64,000 nucleotides of DNA from Glycomyces sp. TRM65418 (GTDB lineage: Bacteria > Actinomycetota > Actinomycetes > Mycobacteriales > Micromonosporaceae), in NCBI RefSeq assembly GCF_019710475.1, contig NZ_JAJFAX010000002.1:124001-188000 (forward strand), read 5' to 3'. The notes beneath the pieces are model-generated. The model ran no database searches. It had not been told where the DNA came from and saw only the letters and a list, made by a program, of their open reading frames with translations. Each line of letters starts with the position of its first letter. Within the stretch, counting starts at the first letter, position 1. The position numbers and the translations under genes were made by a program. This document shows positions 6,740-60,671 of this stretch, in pieces.

Positions 6740-6779
6740 ATCGCTAGAGACTGGAAAGCTCAGGAAGGCTGGGACACGG

Positions 6780-9179: not shown

Positions 9180-9180
9180 A

Positions 9181-15755: not shown

Positions 15756-15886
15756 CCGATTACCGATATGGCTCCACTGCTGCGCGCCCGCCATCCCATC
15801 GCCGCTGTTGAAGCCGACGCGTAGGGTTGTCAGCCGGCTCTGAGAAGATAGTGGCCTCCGCGCTTCGAACTGCAAGGGAACACTGC

Positions 15887-17986: not shown

Positions 17987-20532
17987 TGGGCGAATTGCAG
18001 TTCCAAGCTGACCTCCTCAACGAGGTCGCCCACCGCCTGGACCTCCGTGCGCCGAACCGCGAGGCGGTCCGGTCGGTGCTGCTGCGCACCTCCGATCACT
18101 ACGACGTGCAGGAGAACACCGAGCCGTACGAGTGCATCGTGGACTCGGCCACGGGTGTGGGCAAGACCTTCGTAATGGCCGGGCTCATGGAGTATCTTGC
18201 CGGAGCCGAAGCCCCGGCTCGGAATTTCCTGCTGCTCGCCCCTGGCCGGACGATCCGCGACAAGTCCATCGCGAACTTCTCAGCGGGCACACGTAAGTCG
18301 CTGCGCCACATGCTGCGCTCGAACCCGGTCGTGGTCACCGCCGAGAACTTCGACTCCCAAGCGACCCGGATCGCGATGGACGATCCGTCGGTCACGAAGC
18401 TGTACATCTTCACCGTCCAGGCACTCACCTCAGCGACCGGTGAGGGACGGGCTACCCACGAAGCCCTGGAGACCCTGGGCGACTCGTTCTTCAACCGCCT
18501 TGCGAAACTCGACGACCTCGTGATCCTGGCCGACGAACACCACTGTTACCGCGGCAAAGCCTTTTCGCGCACCATCCAGCAACTCCGACCGGAACTGGTG
18601 GTCGGGCTGACCGCCACGCCCGCGAGATCCGATGAGTCGATGGTCGCCTTCCGCTACCCGCTGGCCGCCGCGATCGCCGATCAGCTGGTGAAGACGCCAG
18701 TCATGGTCGGACGCCGCGACGACCGGACGGACATCGAGACAAAGCTGCTCGACGGGGTCAACCTCCTGCGCTACAAGGCGCAGCACGCGGACGCCTATTG
18801 CGACGAGCATGGCCTCGCCAAGGTGAACCCTGTCATGCTGGTCATCGCGGGCAGTATCGAGGAGGCGAAGGAATTCCAGGAGGTCCTCGACTCTGCCTCG
18901 TTCGACGGCGGGTCTTGGGTAGGAAAGACCCTGCTGGTGCACTCGAAGCTGCCTTCGGAGGAGAAGGAACAGGCCCTTGCCGACCTCGCTGCTGTCGAAG
19001 ACCCCGACTCGCCGGTACGGATCATCATCAGCGTCGGGATGCTCAAGGAAGGCTGGGACGTCAAGAACGTTTACGTGATCGCCTCCATGCGGGCCTCGGT
19101 CTCCGAGGTCATGACCGAGCAGACCCTCGGACGCGGCATGCGGCTCCCATTCGGCCGGTATACCGGCGTCGAAATCCTGGACACACTCGAAGTTCTGGCG
19201 CACGAAAAGTACAGTGAGCTGCTGGCGAAACGAAAAGTTCTCAACGAGGCGTTCATCAACTACGGCATCTATGCCGAAATCAGGCAGCTCCAGGACGGCC
19301 GCTCCGTGGTCCGGGATAAGGCATTCGAAGCCGAAACCGATGTCATCGCCGCGCCAAGCGCACTTGCCTCAGACGAGACCAGTCGCGTCGGCGGCTCCGA
19401 CCTCGACGGCGGGCAGCCTGCTTCGGAATCCGGGAGTTCGCTCGAGGCAGACTCAAGGCCCGCCTTCATCGGGGGTGTGGTCGACATCGACACCCGTACT
19501 CAAGTCGCGGCAGAATCCGCCCGGAAGACGACAGCGAAGATCGCCTACGCGCCGCTTCCCGAACGTGAATCGATCATCATTCCGCTCCTCGAAGCGGTCC
19601 CGCAACCTGTGGTGGTCAGCCTCAACCAGATCCACGATTACACGCCGTTCGAGCAGCTCGGACGAGCGCTCACGAACGACATCTCCGATGAATTGCGGCG
19701 TACCAAAATCACCGCAACACATGACGGTCGCAAGGTCGAAGTGACCACCGAGACGGCTAACGACACGATCGCCTCTGCCCTCCCACTTGAAATGCCGTTG
19801 GAAACCCTGCACCACCAGCTGATGCGCCGAGCGATGGCCGTCAAAGGCGTTGCCAACCGCCCTAATGAACTCGGCGCTGCGAAGCGGATCGTCGATAGCC
19901 TGATTGACGCGATGGGCGACAAAGCCGCCGCCCACCTCTCCGCCTTCGGTGAACGGTGCGGACAGCGACTCGCCGCCAAGATCACCGAAGCGCTCAAGGA
20001 CACTACCCAAGCACAATTCACCTACTCCGATGAGGCGAAGCCCGTATTCCTCGACAAGACTCGGGAAGCGAACAAGCGCCAAGTCGATGGGCACGCGGAT
20101 GGATCATTTGACAAAGCCGTCGCGTTCGGAGGATGGAGCAAGAATCTCTACAGCCACGCCTGGTTCGATAGCGCTCCCGAATTCTCCGTCGCCAACGCCA
20201 TCGACGACGACCCGGACGTGATCGTCTGGGCACGCCTCCACGTCAACGATGTGCCGATCAAATGGACCTCCGAAGGCCGGGAGTACAACCCGGACCTCGT
20301 AGTTATCGAGGAAATCGACGGCAAACGCGTCGGCTGGCTGGTCGAAATCAAGGCCGACAAGGATCTAAACTCAGCCGAGGTCCTCGCGAAGCGCAATGCC
20401 GCAAAACGATGGGCGAATACCGCTAATTCCCTCGAAGGCACGGATGCCACCTGGCGCTATTTGCTGATCGGAGAACAAGACATTGAAGATGCCCAAGGCT
20501 TGTGGAGTCAGCTCAAAGAATTCGGGCAGTAG
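17986..20532 (+). CDS. res: type III restriction enzyme helicase-nuclease (Res)
   Basis: An 848-aa SF2 helicase-nuclease. Walker A is ATGVGKT (55-61), the Walker B-like motif is ILADEHH, then GLTATPA (motif III) and QTLGRGMRLPFGR (motif VI). The C-terminal endonuclease site is PD-(D/E)xK type: YNPDLVVIEE followed by LVEIKAD. With Mod it forms the ATP-dependent complex that cuts unmethylated DNA carrying two head-to-head sites. All catalytic motifs are intact, so unlike the HsdS/HsdM pair this should be a functional restriction system. It starts at the ATG overlapping the mod stop. Confidence 0.92.
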   Translation: MGELQFQADLLNEVAHRLDLRAPNREAVRSVLLRTSDHYDVQENTEPYECIVDSATGVGKTFVMAGLMEYLAGAEAPARNFLLLAPGRTIRDKSIANFSAGTRKSLRHMLRSNPVVVTAENFDSQATRIAMDDPSVTKLYIFTVQALTSATGEGRATHEALETLGDSFFNRLAKLDDLVILADEHHCYRGKAFSRTIQQLRPELVVGLTATPARSDESMVAFRYPLAAAIADQLVKTPVMVGRRDDRTDIETKLLDGVNLLRYKAQHADAYCDEHGLAKVNPVMLVIAGSIEEAKEFQEVLDSASFDGGSWVGKTLLVHSKLPSEEKEQALADLAAVEDPDSPVRIIISVGMLKEGWDVKNVYVIASMRASVSEVMTEQTLGRGMRLPFGRYTGVEILDTLEVLAHEKYSELLAKRKVLNEAFINYGIYAEIRQLQDGRSVVRDKAFEAETDVIAAPSALASDETSRVGGSDLDGGQPASESGSSLEADSRPAFIGGVVDIDTRTQVAAESARKTTAKIAYAPLPERESIIIPLLEAVPQPVVVSLNQIHDYTPFEQLGRALTNDISDELRRTKITATHDGRKVEVTTETANDTIASALPLEMPLETLHHQLMRRAMAVKGVANRPNELGAAKRIVDSLIDAMGDKAAAHLSAFGERCGQRLAAKITEALKDTTQAQFTYSDEAKPVFLDKTREANKRQVDGHADGSFDKAVAFGGWSKNLYSHAWFDSAPEFSVANAIDDDPDVIVWARLHVNDVPIKWTSEGREYNPDLVVIEEIDGKRVGWLVEIKADKDLNSAEVLAKRNAAKRWANTANSLEGTDATWRYLLIGEQDIEDAQGLWSQLKEFGQ

Positions 20533-22461: not shown

Positions 22462-24162
22462 ATGCCTGAGTGGCTCGTTGAGGCGATGGACGGCCTCTTG
22501 GAATGGATCCGCAGTCTGCTCGAGGCCATGCGTGATGGACTGCGCGATGTCCTGACGGAGATGGACTGGATTCATCTGTCCTCCCTTTCCTGGGACTCCG
22601 GCAAGCCGCTGGCTGAGGAGTTCTTGATCCTGGCCGTCGCCGGCTACACCCTGGTCGTTGTCGTGGGCGGGGTCCTCGTCATGTCGCACGAGACGCTGCA
22701 GACTCGCTACACCATTCGTGAAATCGCGCCCCGCCTGGTCGTCGGACTGTTGCTTGCCGGTATTTCGGCGGTGATCGTGCAGCAGGCCATGGCCGCGGCG
22801 AATGAGGTCGTCGACGGGTTCAGTGTCGTTGCGACCGACCCTTCTCTGGCCCCCATTACCCAGTTGGAGGAATTTCCGTCCCAACTGACCATGAGCGGTT
22901 GGTCGGAAGCGGGCTTCGAGTACGAGGACTGCGTCGCGGACAACGGTGAGGCCGCCTGCGAGAAGCCGAACTTGCTGGCGGAGATCCTCTGGATTCTGGC
23001 GACTGCGGCGTGCCTGCTCGTCTTGTTGTTCACCGCGATCGTGCGCAACATAGCGTTCTTCTTTGTCGTCGTGTGCGCGCCGATCGCTTTGGCCTGCCAC
23101 GGTCTGCCGGTCACCGAATGGGCGTCCCGGCTGTGGTGGCGGATGCTCGGCGCTTGCATGGCCTCGGCTATTGGCCAGGCCGCGCTGGTCTGGGTGTGGG
23201 TCAAAATGACCGGCGGCTTCTACTGGGGCCACTTCTTCCACATCCCGGTCACCGAGCTGTATCTGCTCGTCATCGTCTGGATGATGTGGGTCGTCCATAA
23301 GCAGTCGTTCCGGATCGTTCGCGGCCGTCCAGTCTCCATTCCGGGTTCGCGGCTGCTGGGGGCTTTCGTGATGTCGAAAGCACTCGGCAATCACGGTCGC
23401 TCCCGGAAACGGTCGAAGCCCGATCCCGATAAGCAGCCGGACCGCTCTCCGGGCAAGCGCGATGAGGCGGGCGGGAGCAAGTTCGATCTGCCGCCTGAGC
23501 CGCCCGGTTTCAACGAGTGGGCCGACTTCCGCAATACAGCCGACGCCCGCAATCCTCAGCCGCGGCCGCCTACGGGTGGGAATGCATCGGTCTCGCCGCT
23601 TGATGATGCGGCCCCGGTCAGTGTCGACGGGAACCCGGTCGTCGGGGGCAGCAGCGCCCCTTACGCGCCCGACGGGGACCGGCCGCCGCGCCCTAATTCC
23701 CGGGCCGGTACCCTCGCCTCGCCGCTCGACGACGCCCAGCCCGAAGCAACCGCGGCCGTGGCGACTCCGGTCGCTCCGGCGGGCTCGGGCTCCGATCGGC
23801 CCTTGGCGTCGGTCCCGGATGGCGCACTGATCGATCGGCACGAGCCGCCTCCGGTGGTGCGCGTGCGCACCGACCAGGTCGTGCCGCTGGCGCAGCGGCG
23901 CGAGGCCGCGACGGCAGCGAACCGCGACCGGACGGCCGCCGAGGCGGCCGAGGCCGCGAAAGCGCAAGCGACGGCACGGGCGAAAGCCGAGCAGGAGCAG
24001 GCCGAGCGTCGCCGCGCCGCGAAGGCGGCGATGGCCCGCATGGCCGCCACCGGGCGTCCGGCCACCCACGAGGTCCCGGCAGCCCAGGACCATCACGCGT
24101 TCCCGCCGCCCAAACCAGCCGCGAAGCCAAAGCCGGACAGCAAGGGCGGTGAGCGGTCATGA
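22462..24162 (+). CDS. VirB6/TrbL-like polytopic channel protein
   Basis: A 566-aa protein. Residues 1-300 hold about six membrane helices (e.g. FLILAVAGYTLVVVVGGVLV, LLAEILWILATAACLLVLLF, NIAFFFVVVCAPIALAC). Residues 300-566 are a long hydrophilic, Pro/Ala/Arg-rich cytoplasmic tail with an Ala/Glu/Arg-rich coiled-coil-like stretch. That is the architecture of VirB6/TrbL inner-membrane channel proteins in Gram-positive type IV secretion. The start at 22462 follows a 170 bp gap without a supported gene; an in-frame start at 22363 would add 33 residues of unlikely sequence. The 3' end overlaps the next gene by 4 bp. Confidence 0.7.
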   Translation: MPEWLVEAMDGLLEWIRSLLEAMRDGLRDVLTEMDWIHLSSLSWDSGKPLAEEFLILAVAGYTLVVVVGGVLVMSHETLQTRYTIREIAPRLVVGLLLAGISAVIVQQAMAAANEVVDGFSVVATDPSLAPITQLEEFPSQLTMSGWSEAGFEYEDCVADNGEAACEKPNLLAEILWILATAACLLVLLFTAIVRNIAFFFVVVCAPIALACHGLPVTEWASRLWWRMLGACMASAIGQAALVWVWVKMTGGFYWGHFFHIPVTELYLLVIVWMMWVVHKQSFRIVRGRPVSIPGSRLLGAFVMSKALGNHGRSRKRSKPDPDKQPDRSPGKRDEAGGSKFDLPPEPPGFNEWADFRNTADARNPQPRPPTGGNASVSPLDDAAPVSVDGNPVVGGSSAPYAPDGDRPPRPNSRAGTLASPLDDAQPEATAAVATPVAPAGSGSDRPLASVPDGALIDRHEPPPVVRVRTDQVVPLAQRREAATAANRDRTAAEAAEAAKAQATARAKAEQEQAERRRAAKAAMARMAATGRPATHEVPAAQDHHAFPPPKPAAKPKPDSKGGERS

Positions 24163-25031
24163 GCGTCTACGTCCCGGCCGATCTGGATCTGCCCGACAAG
24201 ATCTTGTTCAACCTGACCGCCCGCCAGGTGGCGGTGCTGGCCCCGGCGGCGCTGGGCCTGTGGGGGCTGTGGCAGTCCCTGGCCGGCCTGGTCCATCCGG
24301 TGCTGCTGCTGTTGGCTTCGGCGCCGATCGCCGCCGCGGCGCTGGCGCTCGCGCTCGCCCGCCGTGACGGGACGACGCTCGACCGCCTCGTTTGGGCGGC
24401 CATCCGGTCCCCGCGGACCCCGCTCGCCGCTGGGGCACCCGCACCGGGAGCCGTCCAGGCCGCCCTGGCGCTGACCGGCATGGAGCGCCTCGCCCGAGTC
24501 CGCCCGGTCCCCTCCCCGGTCGACGGCATCGACCCGGCCGGGGTCATCGACCTGGGCGCGGCTGGCTGCGCGGTCGCTGTCGCGGCCGGGTGCGTGAACT
24601 TCGACCTCCGTGCCGAGGGGGAGCGCGCTGCGTTGTGCGACGCGTTCGCGCGCCTGCTGCACTCCCTTGAGGGCCATTTGCAGGTGTCGGTGATGCAGCG
24701 GCCGGTCGACTTGACCGGCTACCTCACCGGCCTCGACGCCCGCGCGAGCGCCCTCGGGGACGGCGCGCTGCAAGCCGCGGCTCAGGCGCACCGGGCCTGG
24801 CTTGCCGGTCTGGTCGCCGGGCGCGGGGTGCTCGCCCGCGAGGTCACCGTCGTCGTCACCGGGCTCGACGCCGAGAGCGCGTCGCGAGCGGCCGCCCAGG
24901 TGGAAGCGTTTTTGGCCCAGATCGGGGCGGACGCGCGGCGCTTGGACCGCTCCGAGCTGTCCGAGCGCATCCGGTTCGGGCTCGATCCCTACGGCACGGC
25001 GGGGGCCGCGTTCGGGGGCTGGTCGCAATGA
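24159..25031 (+). CDS. PrgI-family (VirB3-like) conjugation membrane protein
   Basis: A 290-aa protein. The N-terminus (VPADLDLPDKILFNLTARQV) followed by two membrane helices (VLAPAALGLWGLWQSLAGLV and LLLLASAPIAAAALALALA) is the PrgI/VirB3 pattern found directly upstream of VirB4 in actinobacterial conjugative elements. The remaining 200 residues are a soluble domain also seen in such fusions. It overlaps both neighbours by 4 bp, so it is translationally coupled within the operon. Confidence 0.75.
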   Translation: MSVYVPADLDLPDKILFNLTARQVAVLAPAALGLWGLWQSLAGLVHPVLLLLASAPIAAAALALALARRDGTTLDRLVWAAIRSPRTPLAAGAPAPGAVQAALALTGMERLARVRPVPSPVDGIDPAGVIDLGAAGCAVAVAAGCVNFDLRAEGERAALCDAFARLLHSLEGHLQVSVMQRPVDLTGYLTGLDARASALGDGALQAAAQAHRAWLAGLVAGRGVLAREVTVVVTGLDAESASRAAAQVEAFLAQIGADARRLDRSELSERIRFGLDPYGTAGAAFGGWSQ

Positions 25032-26779
25032 GCCGCTTCTGGAACGCCATCGCCGCCCGGCGTGCCCGCCGCGGCAGGGCGCTCGAGGCCGACCTGTGGC
25101 CTGACACTGCCACGTTCGAGATGCGCCGGTTCCGCGCCGGCGATTCCTGGGGCGCGGTCCTCTTGGTGACCGGGTACCCCGCGACGCTGCCGTGGGGGTG
25201 GGCCGACCAGTTGACCGTCCCCGGCTCGCGCGTGTCCCTCGCCCTGCATCTGGACGGGCTCCCGGCGCAGGTCGCGGCGATGCAGTTGCAGCGCCGCCGC
25301 ACCCGCCTGGAGTCCCAGCGCCGCTACGAGTCCGCGCGCGGGCATCTGGAGGACCCGGCCGTGGAGGCGGCGGCCGCCGATGCCGCCGACCTCGCCGCGC
25401 AAGTCGCCCGCGGCCATGCGCAACTCCACCGCCAGGCGGTCTACCTGACCGTCCACGCCGAGGCGCCCGCCGAGCTCGATCTGGTGTGCGCGCGGGTGCG
25501 CTCGCGGGCGGCGGCAACGATGATCGACGTCCGGCCCGCCACCGCCCGCCAGCTCCCTGGGGCGATCAGTGTCGCCCCGTACGGGGTCGACCCGACCGGC
25601 GCGCACCGGACCGTCGACACCGCCACCGCGGCCGCCGCGTTCCCGTTCGCCTCACCGGATCTGCCCGACCCGACACCGGCGACCGGTGTCCTCTACGGAC
25701 TGAACATGTACTCCGGGGCTCCGGTGCTGTGGGACCGGTGGGCGTCGATGGACAACCACAACTCGGTGCTCATCGCCCGCTCGGGCGCCGGGAAGTCGTA
25801 CTTCACGAAGACCTCGATCCTGCGGGAGCTCTACCAGGGCGTCCGGGTGGTCGTGGTCGACCCCGAGTCGGAGTACCGCGCCCTCGCCGCCCATGTCGGC
25901 GGGACCGTGCACCGGCCCGGCTCCGCTGGGGCCCGGTTGCGTCCGCTCACCATGCCCGATGCGGGTGCGGCCGGCGAGGACGAGTTCGCGCGCCGCCGCC
26001 TCTTCGTCGGCACCGTGGTGGAGACGCTGCTGGGCGAGCGGCTCTCCGGCTCCGAGGCCGCCGTCCTCCAGCGGGCCGCCGCCGCCTGCTACGAAGCCGC
26101 GGGGATCAGCGACGACCCCGGCACTTGGGGCCGCCGGGCCCCGTCCATGGCCGACGTCGCCGACGCCCTCACCGCCGACCCGGCCGGGGTCGACCTCGCC
26201 GCCCGCCTCGCTCCATGGGTGGGGCCGGGCACCGTGTTCGACACCGGCACCGCCGATGCCGGCCCCCAGACGCCCGGTTCACCGCTGGAGGTGTGGGACC
26301 TCGCGTCAGTGGCTCCCGAGCTCGCGTCGGTCGTCACGCTCCTGGTCCTGGACCAGATCTGGCGGCGCCTGCGCCCGGGCGGGCCCCGAACGCTCGTGGT
26401 GGTGGACGAGGCGTGGCTGATGCTGCGCACCGGCCAAGGCGCGGCCTGGCTCTCCCGTCTGGCGAAAAGCGCCCGGAAGCGCAACACCGGGCTCGCGGTG
26501 GTCACTCAAGACGCCGAGGACGTGACCGGCTCCGAGCTGGGGCGCACCGTCATCCACAACTCAGCCACCCAGATCCTCATGCGCCAAGCCGCGCAAGCGA
26601 TCGACTCGATCGCCGCGGCGTTCAAGCTCACCGCGGCCGAGACCGCGCTGATCGGCTCGGCGCGGCTGGGCGAGGGCCTGCTGCTGGGCGGCGGCAACCA
26701 CGTCGCCTTCCGCGCGATCGCCTCCCCCGAAGAGCACCAGCTCGCCCTCACGGGCCTGTCCGCCGGGAGCCGGTCATGA
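25028..26779 (+). CDS. virB4: VirB4/TraE-family conjugation ATPase
   Basis: A 583-aa ATPase. Walker A is ARSGAGKSYFTK (about 250-261), followed by VVVVDPESEYRALA; Walker B is TLVVVDEAWLML, and AVVTQDAEDV near the C-terminus is typical of VirB4. VirB4 powers assembly and substrate movement in type IV secretion. The N-terminal 220 residues correspond to the usual VirB4 N-terminal domain in shortened form. Both ends overlap neighbours by 4 bp. The very high GC here produces a longer false frame in another phase (25192-27831), which should be ignored. Confidence 0.9.
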   Translation: MSRFWNAIAARRARRGRALEADLWPDTATFEMRRFRAGDSWGAVLLVTGYPATLPWGWADQLTVPGSRVSLALHLDGLPAQVAAMQLQRRRTRLESQRRYESARGHLEDPAVEAAAADAADLAAQVARGHAQLHRQAVYLTVHAEAPAELDLVCARVRSRAAATMIDVRPATARQLPGAISVAPYGVDPTGAHRTVDTATAAAAFPFASPDLPDPTPATGVLYGLNMYSGAPVLWDRWASMDNHNSVLIARSGAGKSYFTKTSILRELYQGVRVVVVDPESEYRALAAHVGGTVHRPGSAGARLRPLTMPDAGAAGEDEFARRRLFVGTVVETLLGERLSGSEAAVLQRAAAACYEAAGISDDPGTWGRRAPSMADVADALTADPAGVDLAARLAPWVGPGTVFDTGTADAGPQTPGSPLEVWDLASVAPELASVVTLLVLDQIWRRLRPGGPRTLVVVDEAWLMLRTGQGAAWLSRLAKSARKRNTGLAVVTQDAEDVTGSELGRTVIHNSATQILMRQAAQAIDSIAAAFKLTAAETALIGSARLGEGLLLGGGNHVAFRAIASPEEHQLALTGLSAGSRS

Positions 26780-27831
26780 AGCGGCTCCTGGCGATCGGCG
26801 CCGTCCTGCTCGTGCTCGCCGGCGGATGCGCAGTCCTCGTGCTCGGCGCAGCCCAGCAGGCACACCGCTTCCCGATCGGGATCGGCGGCTGCGCCGCCAG
26901 CGCGGCCGACCTCGAGGCGGTCGCCGCAGCGCTCGGCGACGGGTACGGGGAAGCGCAGGCGCGCCATGCGATCACGATCTGGCAGACCGCCGCCGAGCGC
27001 GACCTGCCCGAGCAGGCAGTGGTGGTGGCGCTGGCAACCGCCATGCAGGAATCGCGGATCAGGGTGCTGTCCAACCCGGCGGTGCCCGAGAGCGAGAACT
27101 TCCCCCACGACGGTGAAGGCTTCGACCACGACAGCATCGGGATTTTCCAGCAGCGCCCGCATTGGGGCGACGTCGCGGTCCTCATGGATCCCGCAGGGAG
27201 CGCCGGTCTCTTCTTCGACGCGCTGGAGCGGATCGACGGCTGGGAGGACCTGCCGGTCACGGTCGCCGCCCAACGGGTCCAGGTCTCGGCCTACCCCGAC
27301 GCCTACGCGAAGCACGAAGACGGCGCTCGGGCCGCCGTGGCGGCGATCGGCGGCGGCGCGGACTGCTCGGGCGAGTGGATGCATCCCGTGGCCGGCTTTG
27401 GGGTCGTCTCGGGCTGGCGCAGCGCCGAGCGTCCCACCCACAACGGTGTGGACCTCGGCGCGCCCAGAGGCACCGCGATCCTGGCCGCCGCAGCCGGGGA
27501 CGTGGTGAAGGTCGTGTGTAACGCCCACACGCCCGCCGGACGCCAGCTCTCCTGCGACGTCGATGGTTCTCCCAATGTCATGGGCTGCGGCTGGTATGTC
27601 GAGATCGCTCACGCCGAAGGACTCCTGACCCGCTACTGCCACCTGAGGGAGCGCCCCGAAGTGAACATCGGCGACACCGTTGCCGCCGGCGATCTCCTCG
27701 GCTACGTCGGGTCCTCAGGGCGATCCAGCGGTCCCCATCTGCACCTCGAGGTGCACCGGTCACACGCACCGACCTTCGACACCGCTTTGTCCCCTGTGGA
27801 GCTCTTTTCGTCGAAAGGTGTGGCACTGTGA
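26776..27831 (+). CDS. cell-wall hydrolase: lysozyme-like plus M23 peptidase domains
   Basis: A 351-aa protein with an N-terminal membrane anchor (LLAIGAVLLVLAGGCAVLVL), a lytic-transglycosylase-like region around VVVALATAMQESRIRVL and SIGIFQQRPHWG, and a C-terminal M23 metallopeptidase: THNGVDLGAPRGT carries the first His and Asp, and GPHLHLEVH the HxH motif. Such two-domain enzymes (VirB1/TcpG-like) open peptidoglycan for the conjugation channel. It is coupled by 4-bp overlaps to virB4 upstream and the coupling-protein gene downstream. Confidence 0.88.
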   Translation: MKRLLAIGAVLLVLAGGCAVLVLGAAQQAHRFPIGIGGCAASAADLEAVAAALGDGYGEAQARHAITIWQTAAERDLPEQAVVVALATAMQESRIRVLSNPAVPESENFPHDGEGFDHDSIGIFQQRPHWGDVAVLMDPAGSAGLFFDALERIDGWEDLPVTVAAQRVQVSAYPDAYAKHEDGARAAVAAIGGGADCSGEWMHPVAGFGVVSGWRSAERPTHNGVDLGAPRGTAILAAAAGDVVKVVCNAHTPAGRQLSCDVDGSPNVMGCGWYVEIAHAEGLLTRYCHLRERPEVNIGDTVAAGDLLGYVGSSGRSSGPHLHLEVHRSHAPTFDTALSPVELFSSKGVAL

Positions 27832-30209
27832 TCTCGTGGCTTGCTGATCCCTTTGCAGGGCTTGACGTAAGCCTGCCGATGCTGCTCGGGGCTGGAGGCT
27901 TCGTAGCGGCATTGGCGCTGTCGGTGGGGATCCCACGTGCGGCTGCCCGCCGTGCCGCGGCCGCAAGGTGGCGCGTGGGATGCAAGTACATCGCGATCGA
28001 GGCCCCGCCCGAGGTCGATGCGAAGGCCGCGGTGCTGGCCTGGCGGCAGCTGTTGGCGATCACGCATGGGCGGTGGCGGCGCTGGTGGTCGGGTCAGGAG
28101 CACTTGATCTGGGAGTACCGCTTCACCGGGGCGGCGTTGTCGGTGCGGGTCTGGGTGCCCGGCACGATCGCGGTCAGCCAGGTCACGCACGCGCTCGACG
28201 CCGCCTGGCCGGGCGCGGCCTACACCGTCACCGACGCGGAACCGCCCCTGCCCACCGGGGAAGCGGTGACGATCGAGGGTGGCGTGTTCATCCCCGCGAG
28301 GCACGCACTCGGCCTGCCGCTGGTCGCCGATGCCGCCGCAGGGGAGGTCCTGCGCGGCCTGGTCGCCGCCGGAGCCGCAGGGCGGCAAACCGAACGCGCC
28401 GTCGTCCAGATCGTCGCGCGCCCCGCCTCGAGCCGCGCCGTGCGGCGGGCCGCGAAGGTCGCAGCCGGGCCCAGGACGGGTGGGTCCTTCATCGGCGAGG
28501 TCCTCGACCTGGTCACCCCCGGGGCCGGCCACCATCCGACCGGGAACCGCAAGCCGGTCGAGTCGAACCGGGTTACCTTGCATCGCAAGGCCGTCGCCGA
28601 GCGCCTCGCCACCGGATCGCTCTGGACAATGCAAGTCCGATACGCCGCCGCGGTCACCGGCCCGAAGGAGGTCGCCATCGCCCGGGCGCGCGACCTCGCC
28701 GCCGGGACCGCGGCGGTCTTGGGCGGCGCGTGGCGACGTCGCCCCTCCCGCCGCATCGCCGAGGCCGTGAACGCCTGGGCCGCAGGCTCGGGGCTCCTGG
28801 TCTCCGCCGATGAACTCGCCGTTGCCGCGCACGTCCCATCCGACACCGTGATGCCTGCGCTCGCCCGGGCCGGAGCTCGCCCGGTCGCGCCCGTGGCGGC
28901 GCTGCTGGGCGGGGGGCGCGGCGTCAAAACCCTCGGCCAAGCCCTGGGAGGACAGCGGATCGGCTTGGCCGCGCGCGATGCCCGCCAGCACGTGCACGTC
29001 ATCGGCTCCACCGGGTCGGGCAAGTCCACGCTGCTGCTCAACATGATGCTGGCCGACATCCGCGACAAGCGGGCCGTCGTCTTGATCGATCCGAAGGGCG
29101 ACTTGGTGAACGACCTGCTCGACCGGCTCGACCCCGCCGAGACCACCGGGCGCCTGGTCCTCATCGACCCCGACCGCACCGGCGGTACGCACCCGCGACC
29201 CGGGCTCCCGCCGATCGCGCCCGGCACCGACCCCGAAGTCGCCATCGATCACCTCGTCGGCATCTGCCGCCGACTCTGGGAGCGGCACTGGGGGCCCAGG
29301 GCGAACGATATTTTGCAGCAGTCCCTGCGCACTCAGGTGTACTTGAGCGCCAAGGCGTCCGAGGCCCGAACTACTGACGAGGCGAAGGACATGGCCGACC
29401 TGGCCGGACTCACCGCGCTGCCGATCCTGCTCACGAACAAGCACTTGCGCCAGCGCTACACCGCTGCCATGGACGACGACAACCTGCGCGAGTTCTGGAC
29501 CTGGTTCGACTCGCTCCCGCCCTCGACGTCCGCTCCCGCGGTCGGCCCGGTCCTCGCGCGGCTCCGCTCGGTGCTGGGGCGGTCATTCGTGCGCGAGACC
29601 ATCGGCGCTCCGCCGGCCGCAGCCAGCATCGACCTCGGCGCCGCACTCGACAACGGCGGCATCGTGCTCGCCCGCCTGCCCAAAGGAACATTGGGCGAGG
29701 ACACCGCGAAGCTCGTCGGATCCATCCTGTTCGCCCGGGTCTGGCAGTCCGTCCTAGCTCGCCAAGGCATCCCGGAGGAACGCCGGCGGGACTGCGTCAT
29801 GTACGTCGACGAGTGCCAGAACTTCATGAACCTGCCCGACACCGTCGGCGACGTCCTCGCCGAAGCCCGCGCACTGCGCCTGAGCACCGTCCTGGCCCAT
29901 CAGCACCTCGGCCAGCTCGACCGCGAACTCGAATCAGCGATCTCCTCCAACTGCCGCAATAAGGTCTTCTTCACCATCTCGCCCGAGGACGCGCGCCGCC
30001 TCTCCGCTCACACTGCGCCGAACCTGACCGAGCACGACCTGGCCCACCTCGGCGGCTATACGGCCGCCGCCCGCCTGGTGTCCGGAGGCGTCGAGCAGCC
30101 CGCATGCACCCTCACCACGTTCGGACCACCCGATCCACGAGGCGACGCGGCGTCCGTTGCCGCGCAGGCCGACCGGTTCCCGGCCTTCCGCTATCGGAGC
30201 GGCACGTGA
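27828..30209 (+). CDS. traG: TraG/VirD4-like conjugative coupling ATPase
   Basis: A 793-aa protein with an N-terminal membrane helix (LLGAGGFVAALALSVGIP), Walker A GSTGSGKSTLLLN (K399) followed by VVLIDPKGDLVNDLLDRL, and Walker B VMYVDECQNF. The C-terminal STVLAHQHLGQLDRELESAI block is typical of TraG/TraD/VirD4 enzymes. It brings the relaxed DNA to the secretion channel. GTG 27828 overlaps the previous stop (GTGA), and the 3' end overlaps the replication-relaxation gene in the same way. Confidence 0.9.
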   Translation: MISWLADPFAGLDVSLPMLLGAGGFVAALALSVGIPRAAARRAAAARWRVGCKYIAIEAPPEVDAKAAVLAWRQLLAITHGRWRRWWSGQEHLIWEYRFTGAALSVRVWVPGTIAVSQVTHALDAAWPGAAYTVTDAEPPLPTGEAVTIEGGVFIPARHALGLPLVADAAAGEVLRGLVAAGAAGRQTERAVVQIVARPASSRAVRRAAKVAAGPRTGGSFIGEVLDLVTPGAGHHPTGNRKPVESNRVTLHRKAVAERLATGSLWTMQVRYAAAVTGPKEVAIARARDLAAGTAAVLGGAWRRRPSRRIAEAVNAWAAGSGLLVSADELAVAAHVPSDTVMPALARAGARPVAPVAALLGGGRGVKTLGQALGGQRIGLAARDARQHVHVIGSTGSGKSTLLLNMMLADIRDKRAVVLIDPKGDLVNDLLDRLDPAETTGRLVLIDPDRTGGTHPRPGLPPIAPGTDPEVAIDHLVGICRRLWERHWGPRANDILQQSLRTQVYLSAKASEARTTDEAKDMADLAGLTALPILLTNKHLRQRYTAAMDDDNLREFWTWFDSLPPSTSAPAVGPVLARLRSVLGRSFVRETIGAPPAAASIDLGAALDNGGIVLARLPKGTLGEDTAKLVGSILFARVWQSVLARQGIPEERRRDCVMYVDECQNFMNLPDTVGDVLAEARALRLSTVLAHQHLGQLDRELESAISSNCRNKVFFTISPEDARRLSAHTAPNLTEHDLAHLGGYTAAARLVSGGVEQPACTLTTFGPPDPRGDAASVAAQADRFPAFRYRSGT

Positions 30210-31063
30210 GCGCCCAGCCCCGTCCCACGGTGGCCTCGGCCGCACTGGCCCCGCTCGCGGGCCGGCTGACCGACCGGGACTTCGCGATCATCGACGCGCT
30301 CGGCCGCTTCGGGGTGATGACCACCGCTCAGATCGGCGCGGTCTGGTTCCCCTCCGCTCGAGTCGCGAACGTTCGCTTGGGAACCTTGATCGAGCTCGGC
30401 GTCCTGACCCGCACCCGCCTGCCGCGTTCGGGCGCCTGGCGCTACGCCCTCGCCTGGACCGGGCAGGTCGTGCATGCCCTTCGCAGAGGCGAAAGGCCCC
30501 CATCGAGGGCCGAAGCCGAATGGACGGTTCAGCGTCGCTTCCTGTCCCCGACTCGATCCCACGACGACGGCGCGGTCGAAGCCGTCGCCGCGCTGCACTT
30601 GGCCTGCCGCTTGCACGGGGGAGTCCGCGTCACCGAGTGGCTCTCCGAGGCCGAGGCCAGCGTTGAGTTCCAGGGCCTGCGCCCCGACGCCGCGTTCACG
30701 CTTGAAACCGGCCACGGCCGCCGTCTGACCGCCTGGTATGAGCACGACACGGGCACCGAGACCCTCGACCGGCTGGCCGCGAAGATCACCGCCTACCCGC
30801 GCCGCCGCTCGCCCCTGCTGCCCTACAACCGGAAAGTCCTCATCGCGGTCGCTGCCCCCGCCCGGATCCGCGCCCTCGCGGGCCGTATCACCGACACCGG
30901 CGACCTCACCGTCGCTGTCGGCCTCCACCCACGGCTGCCGCCGTGGCGGACCGACCTCGCCCCGGTGGTGCGCTTGTTGAGTGAGCCGGCCTGGCACCTT
31001 CTCGGCAACGGCAGGGGTAGCCGCAGCCTGCTCGATCTGACCGCACCGATTTCCGGCTACTGA
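30206..31063 (+). CDS. replication-relaxation family protein
   Basis: A 285-aa protein. The N-terminal winged-helix-like region (LTDRDFAIIDALGRFGVMTT, then AQIGAVWF) and the later VTEWLSEAEA...PDAAF...WYEHDTGTE segment match the replication-relaxation family that accompanies TraG in actinobacterial conjugative plasmids and ICEs. In that context it is a candidate for oriT or origin processing, since no classical relaxase was recognised in the window. GTG 30206 overlaps the traG stop. It is the last gene of the tightly packed transfer operon. Confidence 0.8.
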   Translation: MSAQPRPTVASAALAPLAGRLTDRDFAIIDALGRFGVMTTAQIGAVWFPSARVANVRLGTLIELGVLTRTRLPRSGAWRYALAWTGQVVHALRRGERPPSRAEAEWTVQRRFLSPTRSHDDGAVEAVAALHLACRLHGGVRVTEWLSEAEASVEFQGLRPDAAFTLETGHGRRLTAWYEHDTGTETLDRLAAKITAYPRRRSPLLPYNRKVLIAVAAPARIRALAGRITDTGDLTVAVGLHPRLPPWRTDLAPVVRLLSEPAWHLLGNGRGSRSLLDLTAPISGY

Positions 31064-54786: not shown

Positions 54787-55986
54787 ATGCTGCGCCGCAC
54801 CTCTCGCACCCTCCCGGCGATCAACCTCGTGCTCCGGCTCTTCCAGCGCCGCACCGACCCCGGGGCGGCCTATGACCGGCTCCTGGACCGCCATGACATC
54901 GACGAGGCCGCCGACCCCGGCTTCCACGCGGGGATGCGGGTCCTGCTGGGCCAGGCCGCCGCCGTCGACAACTTGTCACCGTTGGGCTGGTTCTCCTTCT
55001 ACTCCGATGTCGAAGGGCGGTTGCGCAACCGCGCCCGCATCCGCGGCCTGCTCGACCAGTACCCCGAGATCCGTCGCACCCCGATCAGGGCACCGATCAT
55101 CGTCGTCGGCCTGCCGCGGACCGCCACGACGTTGACCCACCACATCCTCGCTGGCGTTAAAGGGGTGCGGGGCCCGCAGCTGTGGGAGTTGATGCACACC
55201 AGCCTGGCCCTGCCCGATCACGAACGCCGCCAGGTGATCCGCAGCGTCGACGCTGCGATGAGCATGGTCACCCGGCTGGCTCCGGCCATGCGTGTCATCC
55301 ACCCCCAGCGGGCGACCCTGCCCGATGAATGCGCGTTCTTCCTGCCCCACGGGGAGCAGCACCTCGCCCGCGCCCCCATGCCCGCCTACGAGCACTGGCT
55401 GCGCACCGAGCACGACTTCGCGCCCGACTACGCCTACCTGAAGGAAGGATTGCAGGTCCTCCAGTACGGGCGGCCTGCGACGCGGTGGGTCCTGAAGTGC
55501 CCCACACACCTCGGCCGCTTGCCACTGCTCATGTCGCAGTTCCCCGACGCGACGATCGTGTGGACGCACCGCGACCCGGTCACCGTCATGGGCTCGATCT
55601 GCTCCCTGGTGGAGACCAGTAGGGCGATGCACCTGCGCCGGCTCGGGGACGCCGACCGCCGCGATATCGGGCGCATGGCCTTGACCACGATGTCCGGGCT
55701 GGTCGAGCGCGCCCGCACCGACCGCCTCACGATCCCTCCAGCGCAGATCATCGACGTGCCCTACCCGCTCCTGACCGCCGACCCGCTCGCCGTGATCGAG
55801 CAGTTGTACGGCCTGCTCGGGCTGCGATGGACCGACACCGACGCCGAGCGTGTCGCCTCCGTCGAGCGGCGTGGCACCGGCCGCCGCCACGAATACGGCC
55901 TGGACCAGTACGGCGTCACCGAAGCCGACATCGCCGCCGCCTTCGGCGACTACGCCGGCCTCGCCGACCGCAACCGCATCGGCTGA
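54787..55986 (+). CDS. sulfotransferase-family protein
   Basis: A 399-aa protein. The PAPS 5'-phosphosulfate loop is seen as GLPRTATTLTHHIL (about 108-121), and WVLKCPTHLGRLPLLMSQFP and IVWTHRDPV supply the later conserved blocks (3'-phosphate site) of the Sulfotransfer_3 type. Such enzymes move a sulfonate group from PAPS to an alcohol or amine of a lipid, sugar or natural product; the acceptor is unknown. ATG 54787 follows CGAAAGGCACACACCC. Confidence 0.8.
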   Translation: MLRRTSRTLPAINLVLRLFQRRTDPGAAYDRLLDRHDIDEAADPGFHAGMRVLLGQAAAVDNLSPLGWFSFYSDVEGRLRNRARIRGLLDQYPEIRRTPIRAPIIVVGLPRTATTLTHHILAGVKGVRGPQLWELMHTSLALPDHERRQVIRSVDAAMSMVTRLAPAMRVIHPQRATLPDECAFFLPHGEQHLARAPMPAYEHWLRTEHDFAPDYAYLKEGLQVLQYGRPATRWVLKCPTHLGRLPLLMSQFPDATIVWTHRDPVTVMGSICSLVETSRAMHLRRLGDADRRDIGRMALTTMSGLVERARTDRLTIPPAQIIDVPYPLLTADPLAVIEQLYGLLGLRWTDTDAERVASVERRGTGRRHEYGLDQYGVTEADIAAAFGDYAGLADRNRIG

Positions 55987-56098
55987 CCCCCAAGCCTCGC
56001 CGGAACACCCGACGCCGCGCCGCGCCCCTGGACCTCCGTCGCTTACCCCGCAGCCCCGGGCCCCACCTCCCGACCGTTCCGATCAGAAAGACCCAGAT

Positions 56099-56803
56099 GT
56101 GACCACCGACCATCGGCCAACCAGTCAGCGAACCGCCACGACACCGCTGGTGATCGAGGCCTTCGGCGAATCCCTCACACTCCGCACATGGCTCACCCAC
56201 CCCAAATGTGGCACCACCCGCGAGGAGGTGATCCGCGCGCGGCTGCGGCGCGGCTGGACGCCGGAGGAGGCCATCAGTCGCCCCAGCCAGAACCAACGCC
56301 TGCTCGTCACCGCATTTGGTGACACGCGCCCCGCCAAGGCATGGATCCGAGATGACCGCTGCGTCGTCCCCTATTCCACCCTGCTGTTTCGCCTGCACGC
56401 CGGGGAGATGACTCCTGAGCAAGCCATGACCACGCCACCGCGCGGAGGAAGCGGGACAACCATGCCGCGTCTGGTGACGGCGTGGGGCGAGACGCGGACC
56501 TGCGGCCAGTGGTCGAAAGACCGGCGCTGCACCGTGCGACGCCAGGTGATCTACCAGCGGGTCCGGAAGGGATGGACTGCGGAGGACGCCATTTCGCTCC
56601 CTCTGCGGACGAGGAACGCCTCCACCCGCTACACCGTCTTCGGCGAGACGAAAACCCTCCGTGAATGGGCCCAGGATCGCCGCTGCCACGTCTCGCTGTC
56701 GACCATCCGGAGACGGCTCGCCGAAGGCCTCAACTTCAAACACGCGCTCACCGCCCCCGGTCGAGCGGGAACCTCGCGCGCCACGGTCAGGACCGTGACA
56801 TGA
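56099..56803 (+). CDS. four-repeat protein (about 50-residue repeats)
   Basis: A 234-aa protein made almost wholly of four tandem repeats (about residues 17-63, 68-112, 121-167 and 176-222). Each follows the pattern AFGE..TL..W..D.RC.V...TI..R...GWT.E.AI..P. Similar short repeats occur in phage and HNH-associated DNA-binding proteins, where each unit contacts DNA; that role here is inference. The GTG at 56099 follows GAAAGACC. It overlaps the next gene by 4 bp. Confidence 0.65.
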   Translation: MTTDHRPTSQRTATTPLVIEAFGESLTLRTWLTHPKCGTTREEVIRARLRRGWTPEEAISRPSQNQRLLVTAFGDTRPAKAWIRDDRCVVPYSTLLFRLHAGEMTPEQAMTTPPRGGSGTTMPRLVTAWGETRTCGQWSKDRRCTVRRQVIYQRVRKGWTAEDAISLPLRTRNASTRYTVFGETKTLREWAQDRRCHVSLSTIRRRLAEGLNFKHALTAPGRAGTSRATVRTVT

Positions 56804-57445: not shown

Positions 57446-58561
57446 ATGCACCAACTCATCGCCGCCCCGTTCATGGGCAAACACCTTCTGCTGCGCCCAG
57501 GCCGGAAGGGAGGTGTCACCCTCCCCAAGGGCCATTACAACGAACTGCTCGCCACTCCCGGAGACGAACCGGTCCCGGCATGGCTGGCAGAAGCGGCCCG
57601 GAGCTTCGGGCTCGACCTCGAGGATGCGCCCCTGGAACCGACCGTCCTGGTCCGCCGCCCCTCGAAGTACGGCTACGTCCGCGCCTCCTACGAGCTGAAC
57701 TTGGGCTGCAACTACGACTGCGAGCACTGCTACCTCGCCCAGAAGAAGTTCGAGGGCCTGGAATGGTCCGACCGGGCGAAGCTGCTGCGGATCATGCGCG
57801 ACGCCGGTGTGGTGTTCATCCAGCTGACCGGCGGTGAGCCGATGATCGACCGGCTCTTCATCGAGACCTACGAGCGCGCGTACGCGCTCGGGATGATGAT
57901 CTCGGTGTCCTCCAACGGCTCACGGCTCCACGAGCCGCGCATCCTCGACCTGCTCAAGCGCTGCCCGCCGTATTCGATCACGCTCTCGGTGTACGGGGCC
58001 ACCGCCGAGTCCTACGACAAACTGACCCGGCAGAAGGGCGCGTTCGCTCGGTTCATCAAGGGGCTGGAGGCCGGCGTCGCGGCCGGGCTCCCGATCAAGC
58101 CCAACAACATCGTCACCTCGACCAACGACCACGAGGTCGAGGCGATGGAGACCCTGGCACGCTCCTACGGGCTCCCCTTCCACACCTTCGTGAACATGTC
58201 CCCGACCATCTACGGCGGGGGTGAGCCCTTGCAGGTCCAGTCCGCCGAGTACCTGCGCAAACGGGAGCCCTTCAAGGGTTGCAACGCCGGACACACCTTC
58301 TTCCACTCCGACCCGTTCGGGAAAGCCTCGATCTGCAAGATCGGCCGCGACGACGCGATCCCGCTCATGGCTGAGGGTATCGAGGGCCTGACCCGGCTCG
58401 GGGCCGTCGCCGACAAGCTCATGCTCCGCACCGGAGGCTGCTCCGGGTGCGCGATCTCCGGTACCTGCTGGACCTGTCGCCCCCTGGCGAAGCAGTACCA
58501 GGAGTCCAAAGCCCCCATGGGGATGTACTGCCAGCACGGAGAACCGAAGGGAGGTGAATAA
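57446..58561 (+). CDS. radical-SAM/SPASM peptide maturase (RiPP biosynthesis)
   Basis: A 371-aa enzyme. The radical-SAM cluster motif is CNYDCEHC (C88, C92, C95), followed by QLTGGEPMID. The C-terminal SPASM region supplies auxiliary-cluster cysteines: GCNAGHTFFHSDPFGKASIC and then GGCSGCAISGTCWTC and YCQH. SPASM enzymes modify ribosomally made peptides, forming thioether or carbon-carbon crosslinks. The N-terminal 80 residues are not an obvious PqqD-type recognition domain. ATG 57446 follows CAGGAGAACGAC. A 51-aa peptide gene begins 3 bp after the stop, its ribosome binding site (GGAGGTG) overlapping the end of this gene. Confidence 0.88.
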   Translation: MHQLIAAPFMGKHLLLRPGRKGGVTLPKGHYNELLATPGDEPVPAWLAEAARSFGLDLEDAPLEPTVLVRRPSKYGYVRASYELNLGCNYDCEHCYLAQKKFEGLEWSDRAKLLRIMRDAGVVFIQLTGGEPMIDRLFIETYERAYALGMMISVSSNGSRLHEPRILDLLKRCPPYSITLSVYGATAESYDKLTRQKGAFARFIKGLEAGVAAGLPIKPNNIVTSTNDHEVEAMETLARSYGLPFHTFVNMSPTIYGGGEPLQVQSAEYLRKREPFKGCNAGHTFFHSDPFGKASICKIGRDDAIPLMAEGIEGLTRLGAVADKLMLRTGGCSGCAISGTCWTCRPLAKQYQESKAPMGMYCQHGEPKGGE

Positions 58562-58564
58562 GAC

Positions 58565-58720
58565 ATGGCTGCTATGCCCATCACGTTGGAGCGCAAGCCG
58601 TTCGCCAAGGACAGCGAGGACGACCAGGAACAGACGACGATCGAATTCGTCGCTGACATGGACACCCTCGTGGAGTCCGCGGCGTGCTCGTGCAACGCCG
58701 GTGACGACAACCCCTACTAG
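58565..58720 (+). CDS. RiPP precursor peptide
   Basis: A 51-aa peptide, too short for usual gene calling. The N-terminal leader (MAAMPITLERKPFAKDSEDD...) is acidic and helical. The C-terminal core is AACSCNAGDDNPY, with two cysteines (C41, C43) one residue apart and an acidic GDD before a terminal Tyr. It has a strong GGAGGTG ribosome binding site inside the end of the maturase gene. The cysteines, and the Asn/Asp/Tyr residues, are the candidate crosslinking sites. An alternative start is M4 (58574). Confidence 0.82.
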   Translation: MAAMPITLERKPFAKDSEDDQEQTTIEFVADMDTLVESAACSCNAGDDNPY

Positions 58721-58806
58721 AAGAAGATGACCGATCCCCATCCGTACACAGGGCTCCGGTGTCGCCTACACGCCGGGGCCCCTCCCCTGCCGATAGCATC
58801 CCTGAA

Positions 58807-59685
58807 ATGACCCACACGGATCTCGCCGACCGCATCACCGCCACCAGCTACCTCCCCACGCTCGGCCCGATCCACCCCCACGAGCGCCGCCCCGAACTGT
58901 GGCAGCAGGTGCTGGACAACAACGGCACCGGCGGGTTCCTGCCGTTCGATAAGGCTCGCGTGTGGGGCGGGCTCAAGCAGGACGCGATCCTCACCGACCG
59001 CATCACCGCGGGCGACGACTTCGCTCTGGTGCCGGTGCTCGACCGGAGCGGACCCGGCACCGTGGACGTGTACTGCTACGGCAACCTCGACCAGGCGAAG
59101 CCGCGCGGTGCCGACCTCGCGGCGAAGGCCGCCGCCGATCACGGCACCGACCGCGCCCGCCTGAAATGGTTCACCACCGACACCGCCGAGACGGCAGCTG
59201 ACCGTGCGGTGCGCATCCAGCTCAAGACCTTCGAACCCGACACTGAACCCCCCTTCCCGGGCTGGGGCGTCGACGCCCTCACTGACCAGCCCCCGGGTGC
59301 CCGCGCTTCATTCGCCGGATTCGCCGCCCGCGCAAAAGACGGCTTCCCCTTCCTCGCCTCACGACTCGTCGAAGGCCTAAATGACGGCCCGATCCTCACC
59401 GTCCGGGACCTTGCACAGATCGTCGGCGCGATCGGCCCCATGCGGATCCTCCCCGACTCACTCGGCGTTCCCCGCCTGCTCCCGCAGTACTTCACGGTGC
59501 TCCCCGAGCACCGCGGCAACGGCTACGGCCGCTCCCTCTGGAACGCAGCAATGGCCTGGGGCCACGAACACGGCGCGGCCTACCAGCTCTTGCAGACCGA
59601 AATCGGTGGAGCCTCCGACCGGCTGTGCCAGTCAGACGGCCTAGCTTCGCTCAGCGTTCTTCACACTCACAAAGTCGCCTTCTGA
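58807..59685 (+). CDS. GNAT-family N-acetyltransferase
   Basis: A 292-aa protein. The C-terminal third carries the acetyl-CoA motif RGNGYG in YFTVLPEHRGNGYGRSLWNA, followed by HGAAYQLLQTEIGGASDRLC. The N-terminal 190 residues are an extra domain without a recognised family. It follows the RiPP precursor by 86 bp on the same strand, so it may acetylate the peptide, its leader-derived amine, or a target for self-protection; this is inference from position. The ATG at 58807 is used rather than 58759. Confidence 0.75.
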   Translation: MTHTDLADRITATSYLPTLGPIHPHERRPELWQQVLDNNGTGGFLPFDKARVWGGLKQDAILTDRITAGDDFALVPVLDRSGPGTVDVYCYGNLDQAKPRGADLAAKAAADHGTDRARLKWFTTDTAETAADRAVRIQLKTFEPDTEPPFPGWGVDALTDQPPGARASFAGFAARAKDGFPFLASRLVEGLNDGPILTVRDLAQIVGAIGPMRILPDSLGVPRLLPQYFTVLPEHRGNGYGRSLWNAAMAWGHEHGAAYQLLQTEIGGASDRLCQSDGLASLSVLHTHKVAF

Positions 59686-60014: not shown

Positions 60015-60671
60015 TCACGACGGGTCGGTCAGGCCCGCTTCGTACGCGGTGATCGCCGCCTGGACCCGGTTCCTTGCGCCGAGCCGGACGAGGACGGCGC
60101 TCACGTGCGCTTTCACCGTTCCTTCGGAGATGTTCAGCTCCCGGGCGATCTCCTGGTTCGACAGGCCCCGACCCACGCCCGCCAGGACGTCCCGCTCCCG
60201 AGGGGTCAACGCGGCGACCCGCTCGCGGGCCGGTTCGATCCGGTCGAGCCTCCCGCTGTGCAGCTGCGCGATCACCCGCCGGGCGATCCCCGGCGACAGG
60301 TACGCGGCCCCGTCGGCGACGGCCTTCACCCCGATGATGAGCTCGCGCGGATCGGCGGCCTTCAGCAGGAACCCGCTCGCGCCCAACGCGAGCGCCCTCG
60401 CGACGTAGGCGTCCTCGTCGAAGGTCGTCAGCATGATCACCGCGGTCTCTGGAACCGCGCGGCGCAGCTCGGCGGCCGCCGCGAGACCGTCCATGCCGGG
60501 CATGCGGATGTCAAGCATGGCCACGTCCGGGCGGTGCGCGCGGGCGAGTCCGACGGCCCCGGCGCCGTTCCCGGCCTCGGCCACCACCGCGATCTCCGGA
60601 TCAGTGGCGAGGATGGCGGCCACCCCGCCGCGGATCATGGCCTCGTCGTCGGCCAGCAGTACCCGGATCAT
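60015..60671 (-). CDS. NarL/LuxR-type response regulator
   Basis: A 218-aa protein with an N-terminal receiver domain (phosphoacceptor Asp in RPDVAMLDIRMPGMD, acidic pair DDE near residue 8, conserved Lys in SGFLLKAADPRE) and a C-terminal LuxR helix-turn-helix (LTPRERDVLAGVGRGLSNQE and then IARELNISEGTVKAHV). Its start overlaps the kinase stop by 4 bp. It is the cognate regulator of that kinase. Confidence 0.92.
   Translation of the reverse strand: MIRVLLADDEAMIRGGVAAILATDPEIAVVAEAGNGAGAVGLARAHRPDVAMLDIRMPGMDGLAAAAELRRAVPETAVIMLTTFDEDAYVARALALGASGFLLKAADPRELIIGVKAVADGAAYLSPGIARRVIAQLHSGRLDRIEPARERVAALTPRERDVLAGVGRGLSNQEIARELNISEGTVKAHVSAVLVRLGARNRVQAAITAYEAGLTDPS

Follow-up and report, generated by a model that had tools for sequence, protein, structure and literature searches.

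In a 64,000-nucleotide stretch of the genome of Glycomyces sp. TRM65418 (the window), a radical SAM maturase, a small precursor peptide and a GNAT acetyltransferase are encoded in one direction as a compact locus (table 1). The locus most likely represents a three-gene cassette, shared by many soil actinomycetes, that makes a small cross-linked peptide and then caps it with an acetyl or phosphate group. The full proposal, part of which is inferred, is a cassette for a ribosomally synthesized and post-translationally modified peptide (RiPP) in which a leader-guided maturase installs a thioether between a cysteine and an acidic residue and a third enzyme modifies the product; we give it a probability of about 0.5. 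The genome is 5.09 Mb in size and Glycomyces-like, and the nearest named relative found was Glycomyces artemisiae. The coordinates bear out the compact layout described in the initial annotation: the start codon of the 51-residue precursor follows the maturase stop codon after a gap of 3 bp (GAC), its ribosome-binding site overlaps the end of the maturase, because GGGAGGTG lies within the final maturase codons, and a GNAT comes next.

A conserved small gene beside the maturase

The precursor ends in the core C41-S-C43-N-A-G-D47-D48-N-P50-Y51. The initial annotation had proposed searching beside maturase homologues for a conserved small frame of this kind, and we found one in 80 of 80 genome-contig loci (the best 80 of 184 confirmed relatives) and in 17 of 17 viral-contig loci (those of 62 with at least 51% identity, the other 45 having at most 35%). 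We then considered a wider set of 195 loci with maturase scores of at least 100 bits, from which 11 had been removed (two views of the window's own locus, the rest repeats) and which gave 164 distinct maturases. The strict core motif, followed by a stop codon, was present within 500 bp downstream of 159 of these, while six-frame translation of the same loci (1,729,114 bases) contained no copy outside those positions. Among the five maturases lacking it, L006, L007 and L249 are partial matches or lie on cut contigs; L198 has a visible motif with no stop within two residues, near a contig end; and L107 has the variant core CSCTASSDQVYNN, outside the two strict core classes. The locus thus has the gene arrangement expected of a RiPP, in which the gene for a modifying enzyme adjoins a small, conserved precursor gene, and precursor and maturase very probably form a RiPP pair.

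A protein search with the precursor returned only three relatives, the window's own included; the others came from DNA. The precursor matched no family in NCBIfam, Pfam or PHROGs, and Pfam matches in the whole locus were limited to the radical SAM core and the GNAT. Precursor length was 39–66 residues in 67 of the 80 genome-contig loci and reached 76 residues elsewhere.

Constraint is concentrated in the core. Across its 11 codons, the window and G. artemisiae (L003) differ by one synonymous and no nonsynonymous change. Among L050–L079, the window and L003, mean nonsynonymous divergence (dN) was 0.158 and synonymous divergence (dS) 0.703 in the core, versus 0.655 and 0.638 in the 20 preceding codons (ungapped comparison; pairs with dS of 0 or at least 3 left out). 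Over all pairs of cores with two cysteines, the ratio of nonsynonymous to synonymous codon differences was 1.03 in the core and 6.72 in the preceding codons. Tighter constraint on the core than on the leader is not typical of diversifying bacteriocins and suggests one conserved product.

Core classes and the predicted crosslink

The 159 cores fell into two classes. The double-Cys class (117 loci) follows C-[SNAF]-C-x-[AGSV]-[GSD]-[DE]-[DNS]-[NQAV]-P-[YHFN], and the single-Cys class (42 loci) follows [GA]-C-[GNS]-[DNE]-D-N-P-[YF], with one residue after the aromatic in 34. The strict pattern fixes some acid letters, and the acid positions were counted with a looser one that allowed D, E, N or S there. 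Position 7 of the double-Cys class, which completes a Cys-X3-acid spacing, was Asp in 115, Glu in one (a natural Asp-to-Glu exchange in L043) and Ser in one (L107) of 117, and the C-X2 position of the single-Cys class was Asp in 42 of 42. The neighbouring position 8 varies in the first class, as does the residue before the constant Asp in the second. A ranthipeptide-type Cys-X3-Asp/Glu motif was accordingly present in 116 of 117 double-Cys loci, and the 42 single-Cys loci have CX2D. One Cys-to-acid spacing is therefore constant within each class, L107 excepted, which suggests a Cys-to-Asp/Glu thioether with a ring size that would differ by class; judged from these sequences, the odds for such a link are about even. 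The PapB study (PMC9413430) describes Cys to Asp/Glu links in CX3D/E motifs and acceptance of CXnD with n from 0 to 6.

The initial annotation had argued that the tight CxC spacing called for something other than ladder-type links, with Asn, Asp or Tyr as possible partners. A non-ladder Cys-to-Asp crosslink would fit the constancy pattern, while Asn or Tyr is the less likely partner because both positions vary: Asn is replaced by Gln, Ala or Val, and Tyr by His, Phe or Asn (terminal His in 43, Phe in 7 and Asn in 4 of 117 double-Cys cores).

We also considered a triceptide, which is defined by an aromatic core residue with two more residues behind it (Omega1-X2-X3). The terminal position is the last residue in 116 of 117 double-Cys and 8 of 42 single-Cys cores, and the remaining 35 have a single residue after it (tails of 0–2 residues were allowed); L107, outside the classes, has two. 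The core counts lower triceptide- and mycofactocin-type readings.

The maturase

The maturase carries a CxxxCxxC motif (C88, C92, C95; Pfam PF04055, 1.9e-17) and seven further cysteines in a SPASM-type pattern (C279, C297, C332, C335, C341, C344, C362). All motif cysteines were invariant among 20 aligned relatives; outside that alignment, L010 has Tyr in place of C332, and L049-type maturases contain an insert. The last cysteines are spaced CX2CX5CX2C, where the usual SPASM spacing ends in CX3C. The Pfam SPASM model gave no match at E 0.1, so the SPASM label rests on the cysteine pattern and the fold. In the predicted model, residues 4–66 form three strands plus helices resembling a RiPP recognition element (RRE), and structural alignments to SkfB and SuiB begin at residues 2–3. 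The closest folds were SkfB, BlsE, MoaA and SuiB.

Assignment to an actinomycete family, as first annotated, stands and can be refined. The family is large (1247 relatives in a protein search, the best 120 all with at least 57% identity) and unnamed: among the best 25 of 52 matched NCBIfam models, the maturase scored below every curated cut-off, including those for StsB (63.7 versus 625), SkfB (34.1 versus 300) and mycofactocin MftC (63.4 versus 265). Prokaryotic viperin was rejected, with a score of 51 against the NCBIfam cut-off of 180. In PADLOC, the only matches were weak ones of the viperin type, confined to the radical SAM core (pVip, 58.2 bits, cut-off not stated).

A kinase or an acetyltransferase as third gene

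The GNAT expected after the precursor is present in the window, but across the family it is one of two alternative third genes. Using same-strand tblastn matches up to 2.5 kb downstream to class the third gene, we found an APH-type kinase only in 93, a GNAT only in 57, both in seven and neither in three of 160 distinct loci with a precursor. On the enzyme tree (without L029 and L047), the third-gene label changed four times, at least two of the changes being forced by well-supported branches; a larger quick tree gave seven changes.

The kinase motifs HxD....N and DW-type were both found in 87 of 100 kinase loci. The core ended in Tyr in 99 of 99 kinase loci versus 4 of 58 loci without a kinase (the window, L003, L094 and L022), counted over 157 of the 159 strict loci with rows shorter than 330 residues dropped. 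L091 and L233, single-Cys loci without a kinase, end in Phe. In the lasso peptide paeninodin, the C-terminal Ser modified by the kinase is conserved in kinase clusters (PMC9266682). We lean slightly towards the kinase acting on the Tyr. The penultimate residue was Asn in 42 of 42 GNAT-only cores and Asn in 19, Gln in 17, Ala in two and Val in one of 39 kinase-only cores; independent pairs gave no support for an association with the third gene (99 loci; the Cys pattern missed 13).

Three loci that adjoin the window on the larger quick maturase tree (L191, L194 and L210) carry both kinase and GNAT, and the source genome yielded no kinase orthologue, its best match being partial at 34%. A loss of the kinase is therefore possible.

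The motif R-G-x-G-x-G was kept in 21 of 21 aligned GNAT members. The GNAT was modelled as a tandem GNAT at a predicted local distance difference test (pLDDT) score of 95.3, with similar folds in 3tt2, MAB_4324 and MshD (template modelling scores of about 0.45–0.52). GNAT-family matches, some partial, occurred in 33 of 323 Streptomyces genomes. Six of 30 loci were inspected, partial matches in G548, G617 and G804 being left out, and five of them have a full-length GNAT with no intact maturase nearby: L295 keeps the precursor with no maturase match, L294 keeps it with a weak maturase remnant, L283 has a precursor fragment, and L301 and L308 have neither precursor nor maturase. An immunity gene would be expected to persist in this way after loss of the maker, although the numbers are small and, conversely, three of the 160 cassettes have no third gene.

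Expression of the third gene

A hairpin 3' of the precursor had a folding z below -2 (60 shuffles per locus) in 139 of 159 loci across the family: 55 of 57 GNAT-only, 74 of 92 kinase-only, 7 of 7 double and 3 of 3 other loci. Of the 57 GNAT-only loci, 56 had a TAnnnT pattern 4–9 bases before a start codon (4.2 expected), as did all seven double loci (0.4 expected), and a Shine-Dalgarno pattern was absent from all of these starts. Kinase-only loci had TAnnnT in 8 of 92 (2.8 expected) and a Shine-Dalgarno pattern in 35 of 92 (5.9 expected). The hairpin and promoter-pattern counts include many close relatives and hence are not independent. The start regions indicate that each GNAT probably has its own transcript, which would be leaderless.

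Proposed pathway and alternatives

We propose that the N-terminal RRE-like domain of the maturase would hold the leader by its I/V-E-F-V strand and DLDxLxES helix; in the leader model, the strand E27–V29 and helix D33–S38 lie in blocks at pLDDT 79–86. Following the chemistry established for PapB, the maturase would then join the sulfur of the constant Cys to the side chain of the constant Asp/Glu as a thioether; the linked motif would be C43-X3-D47 here and C-X2-D in the single-Cys class. As no peptidase is encoded in the cassette, a housekeeping protease is proposed to release a short C-terminal peptide. The APH-type kinase would phosphorylate the Tyr of the terminal motif on the released peptide, and the GNAT, with its own leaderless promoter pattern, would acetylate an amine, perhaps the new N-terminus.

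Several observations weigh against this proposal or parts of it. Many of the loci in the third-gene counts are closely related, SAECSCDAGDDNPH being common to 27 distinct maturases. Thirteen of the 100 kinase frames lack one or both motifs (ten complete frames and three truncated at a contig end); inactive or misread copies may thus be among them. After correction for ancestry, five independent supported pairs remained for the coupling of kinase and Tyr, with a mean of 3.7 changing in the same way and none in the opposite (p 0.125–0.25), which makes the coupling a lead and not proof; the window itself, with Tyr and a GNAT but no kinase, is an exception to it. The RRE is a reading of the fold, few solved structures covering that part of the model, and the core was modelled at pLDDT 39–51 only. 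L107 breaks the CX3D rule, and the first Cys (C41) is likewise constant in the double-Cys class, so two links, or another partner, are possible. The window's hairpin taken alone was not significant (z of -1.6 in a 70-nucleotide stretch), and no product or activity is known for the core.

The exchange of acetyl and phosphoryl transfer at one position, the separate promoter pattern of the GNAT and the orphan GNATs together point to a modification that would mask or detoxify the product. That the third gene protects the host is a tentative idea drawn from these gene arrangements, and we hold it somewhat short of even. Carried further, the cassette would be a mobile module of peptide and chemical antidote, in which the maturase arms a conserved intracellular peptide and either of two exchangeable enzymes, an acetyltransferase or a Tyr-kinase, disarms it, a RiPP-based system of addiction, exclusion or defence spread by phages, plasmids and integrative elements; we consider this extension unlikely.

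The cassette could instead make an ordinary secreted bacteriocin or signal RiPP of the sactipeptide or ranthipeptide type, served by general export and proteolysis and with the third gene as plain tailoring. The fold closest to the maturase is SkfB, with SuiB among the best, the core is Cys-rich, and 58 of 74 loci with enough sequence (L009–L088) have an XRE-type regulator, in many cases from the NsdA family, no more than 4 kb upstream of the maturase. Yet no transporter, exporter or peptidase was recognized among the families recurring in at least eight loci near the maturase (families were named from one scanned member each, and F12, in eight loci, was not scanned), and an ABC-type ATPase family read from the sequence (F13, eight loci) falls within -4/+5 kb in one locus only. 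The core is conserved rather than diversified, CxC leaves little space for ladder-type links, and the GNAT has a separate promoter pattern. This explanation is therefore doubtful.

A product like a cofactor is also conceivable, the core being trimmed to a small molecule with a redox or cofactor role, built from the C-terminal residues as in mycofactocin or PQQ and then tailored by the third enzyme. The core is more conserved than the leader, a C-terminal Tyr is frequent, and there is a single small precursor with no exporter recurring nearby; PMC9062424 describes oxidative decarboxylation of a C-terminal Tyr by mycofactocin MftC. What makes a cofactor improbable is the number of cores with terminal His, Phe or Asn, the residue that follows the aromatic in most single-Cys cores, identified neighbours that comprise regulators, HATPase and NUDIX proteins but lack a dehydrogenase partner, and a score far under the mycofactocin maturase cut-off. 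Finally, the small protein is short and translated beside the maturase, which would suit a regulator of the radical SAM enzyme or a partner of it, but its constraint sits in the C-terminal Cys/Asp tail while its length varies, and two tail classes track the third enzyme, which are features of a substrate and make a partner role very unlikely.

Relation to known systems

A close parallel to the proposed cassette is PapB/freyrasin, a ranthipeptide system, with which it shares a SPASM-type maturase, the constant Cys-X3-Asp/Glu of the double-Cys class and the Asp-to-Glu exchange. It differs in having one short motif at the extreme C-terminus in place of six, an extra Cys two residues before, a CX2D class, a kinase or GNAT as third gene and actinomycete hosts, and its thioether is predicted. 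The sporulation killing factor maturase SkfB is 17–18% identical, has an NCBIfam cut-off far above the score obtained here and acts on a core unrelated to that of the cassette. Blasticidin BlsE, a cytosylglucuronate decarboxylase, was the top PDB sequence match to the maturase (3.5e-12), covering the radical SAM core only; it is a small-molecule enzyme without a precursor peptide.

For the third enzymes, PMC9266682 describes the paeninodin kinase PadeK, whose clusters conserve a C-terminal hydroxyl substrate residue, and AlbT, the GNAT of albusnodin in Streptomyces. Both belong to lasso peptides, another RiPP class. In the present family, either a kinase or a GNAT usually fills the same gene position, and the residue modified by the kinase would be a Tyr. 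The tandem-GNAT fold is shared with mycothiol synthase MshD, which acetylates a cysteine amine, and with other tandem GNATs, but identity is at most 18% and no common pathway is known.

The initial annotation knew of no product for this core, and in agreement with this we found no description of the cassette or of the core motif in the open-access full-text literature. The family may be a new variant, a radical SAM RiPP family in which an acetyltransferase and a kinase can replace each other; the bioinformatic atlas of Clark and Seyedsayamdost and the actinobacterial triceptide paper of Phan and Morinaka may overlap with it. It is a sharply defined peptide family whose precursor matched no family model. 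Its natural swaps (two ring classes, kinase versus acetyltransferase, Tyr versus His or Phe) are ready genetic variants for studying the choice of crosslink and the role of the third enzyme. If the third enzyme were indeed an antidote, RiPP chemistry would be linked to mobile-element conflict.

Genomic context and distribution

Table 1. Features of the cassette and of the DNA to its left in the window.
Feature	Position in window	Strand	Remarks
Radical SAM maturase	57446–58561	+	371 aa; ATG 57446, stop TAA 58559–58561
Shine-Dalgarno-like GGGAGGTG for the precursor	58549–58556	+	within the last maturase codons
Precursor peptide	58565–58720	+	51 aa; ATG 58565, stop 58718–58720; leader motif TIEFVADMDTLVES
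Core codons C41 to Y51	58685–58717	+	predicted crosslink C43 to D47 (CX3D)
GC-rich hairpin, possible terminator or attenuator	58751–58781	+	between precursor and GNAT; -23.8 kcal/mol
TAGCAT, candidate -10 element	58794–58799	+	7 bp before the GNAT ATG; putative leaderless start
GNAT acetyltransferase	58807–59685	+	292 aa; ATG 58807 the likeliest start; tandem-GNAT fold; motif R236-G-N-G-Y-G241
CBASS-type operon	5774–10479		CD-NTase, E2-like, E1-E2-like, TIR-SAVED effector
Type III restriction-modification pair	15851–20532		methyltransferase and Res helicase
Conjugation genes	24159–31063		PrgI family, VirB4/TraG-like ATPase, coupling protein, replication-relaxation protein
Sulfotransferase	54787–55986		PF13469; upstream of the cassette
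Repeat protein	55850–56803		PHROG matches to HNH endonuclease-type repeats

Recurring neighbours that could be named were the cassette genes, the XRE-type regulators, a HATPase and a NUDIX protein; upstream of the maturase in L009–L088, NUDIX occurred in 20 loci and HATPase in 15. One further recurring family (F7) corresponds to a reading frame antisense to the precursor.

In the window, no feature follows the cassette before the chromosome common to five Glycomyces relatives, with synteny ending at 60024–60030 (matches longer than 150 bases). About 104 kb to the left of this point has no counterpart in the relatives' adjacent 11–14 kb. For the left boundary of the island, the relatives' flanks had no clean counterpart in the source genome, and we claim the right edge alone. 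The DNA left of the cassette contains conjugation and defence genes (table 1), and the conjugation genes make an integrative conjugative element likely.

The cassette also occurs on predicted viral contigs and on plasmids. Streptomyces phage Success (L089, bases 266–2380) carries at one genome end a maturase, a 38-residue single-Cys precursor (GCGDDNPYN) and a kinase, annotated as oxidoreductase, hypothetical protein and kinase. Eight plasmid-collection records matched the maturase, one of which is 11.85 Mb and chromosome-sized, while two are one megaplasmid with a 43% match. The three plasmid stretches that were opened all have the precursor, and their third gene is a GNAT, a kinase and neither, respectively.

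The distribution of the cassette is patchy. Maturase matches were found in 6 of 121 relatives (own genome and the doubtful partial G078 included), in 6 of 396 genomes of a phylum sample (own genome and one broken copy included) and in 74 of 392 sampled Streptomyces species (partial or broken copies included). A search with the phage enzyme matched 17 of 394 class members (own genome included).

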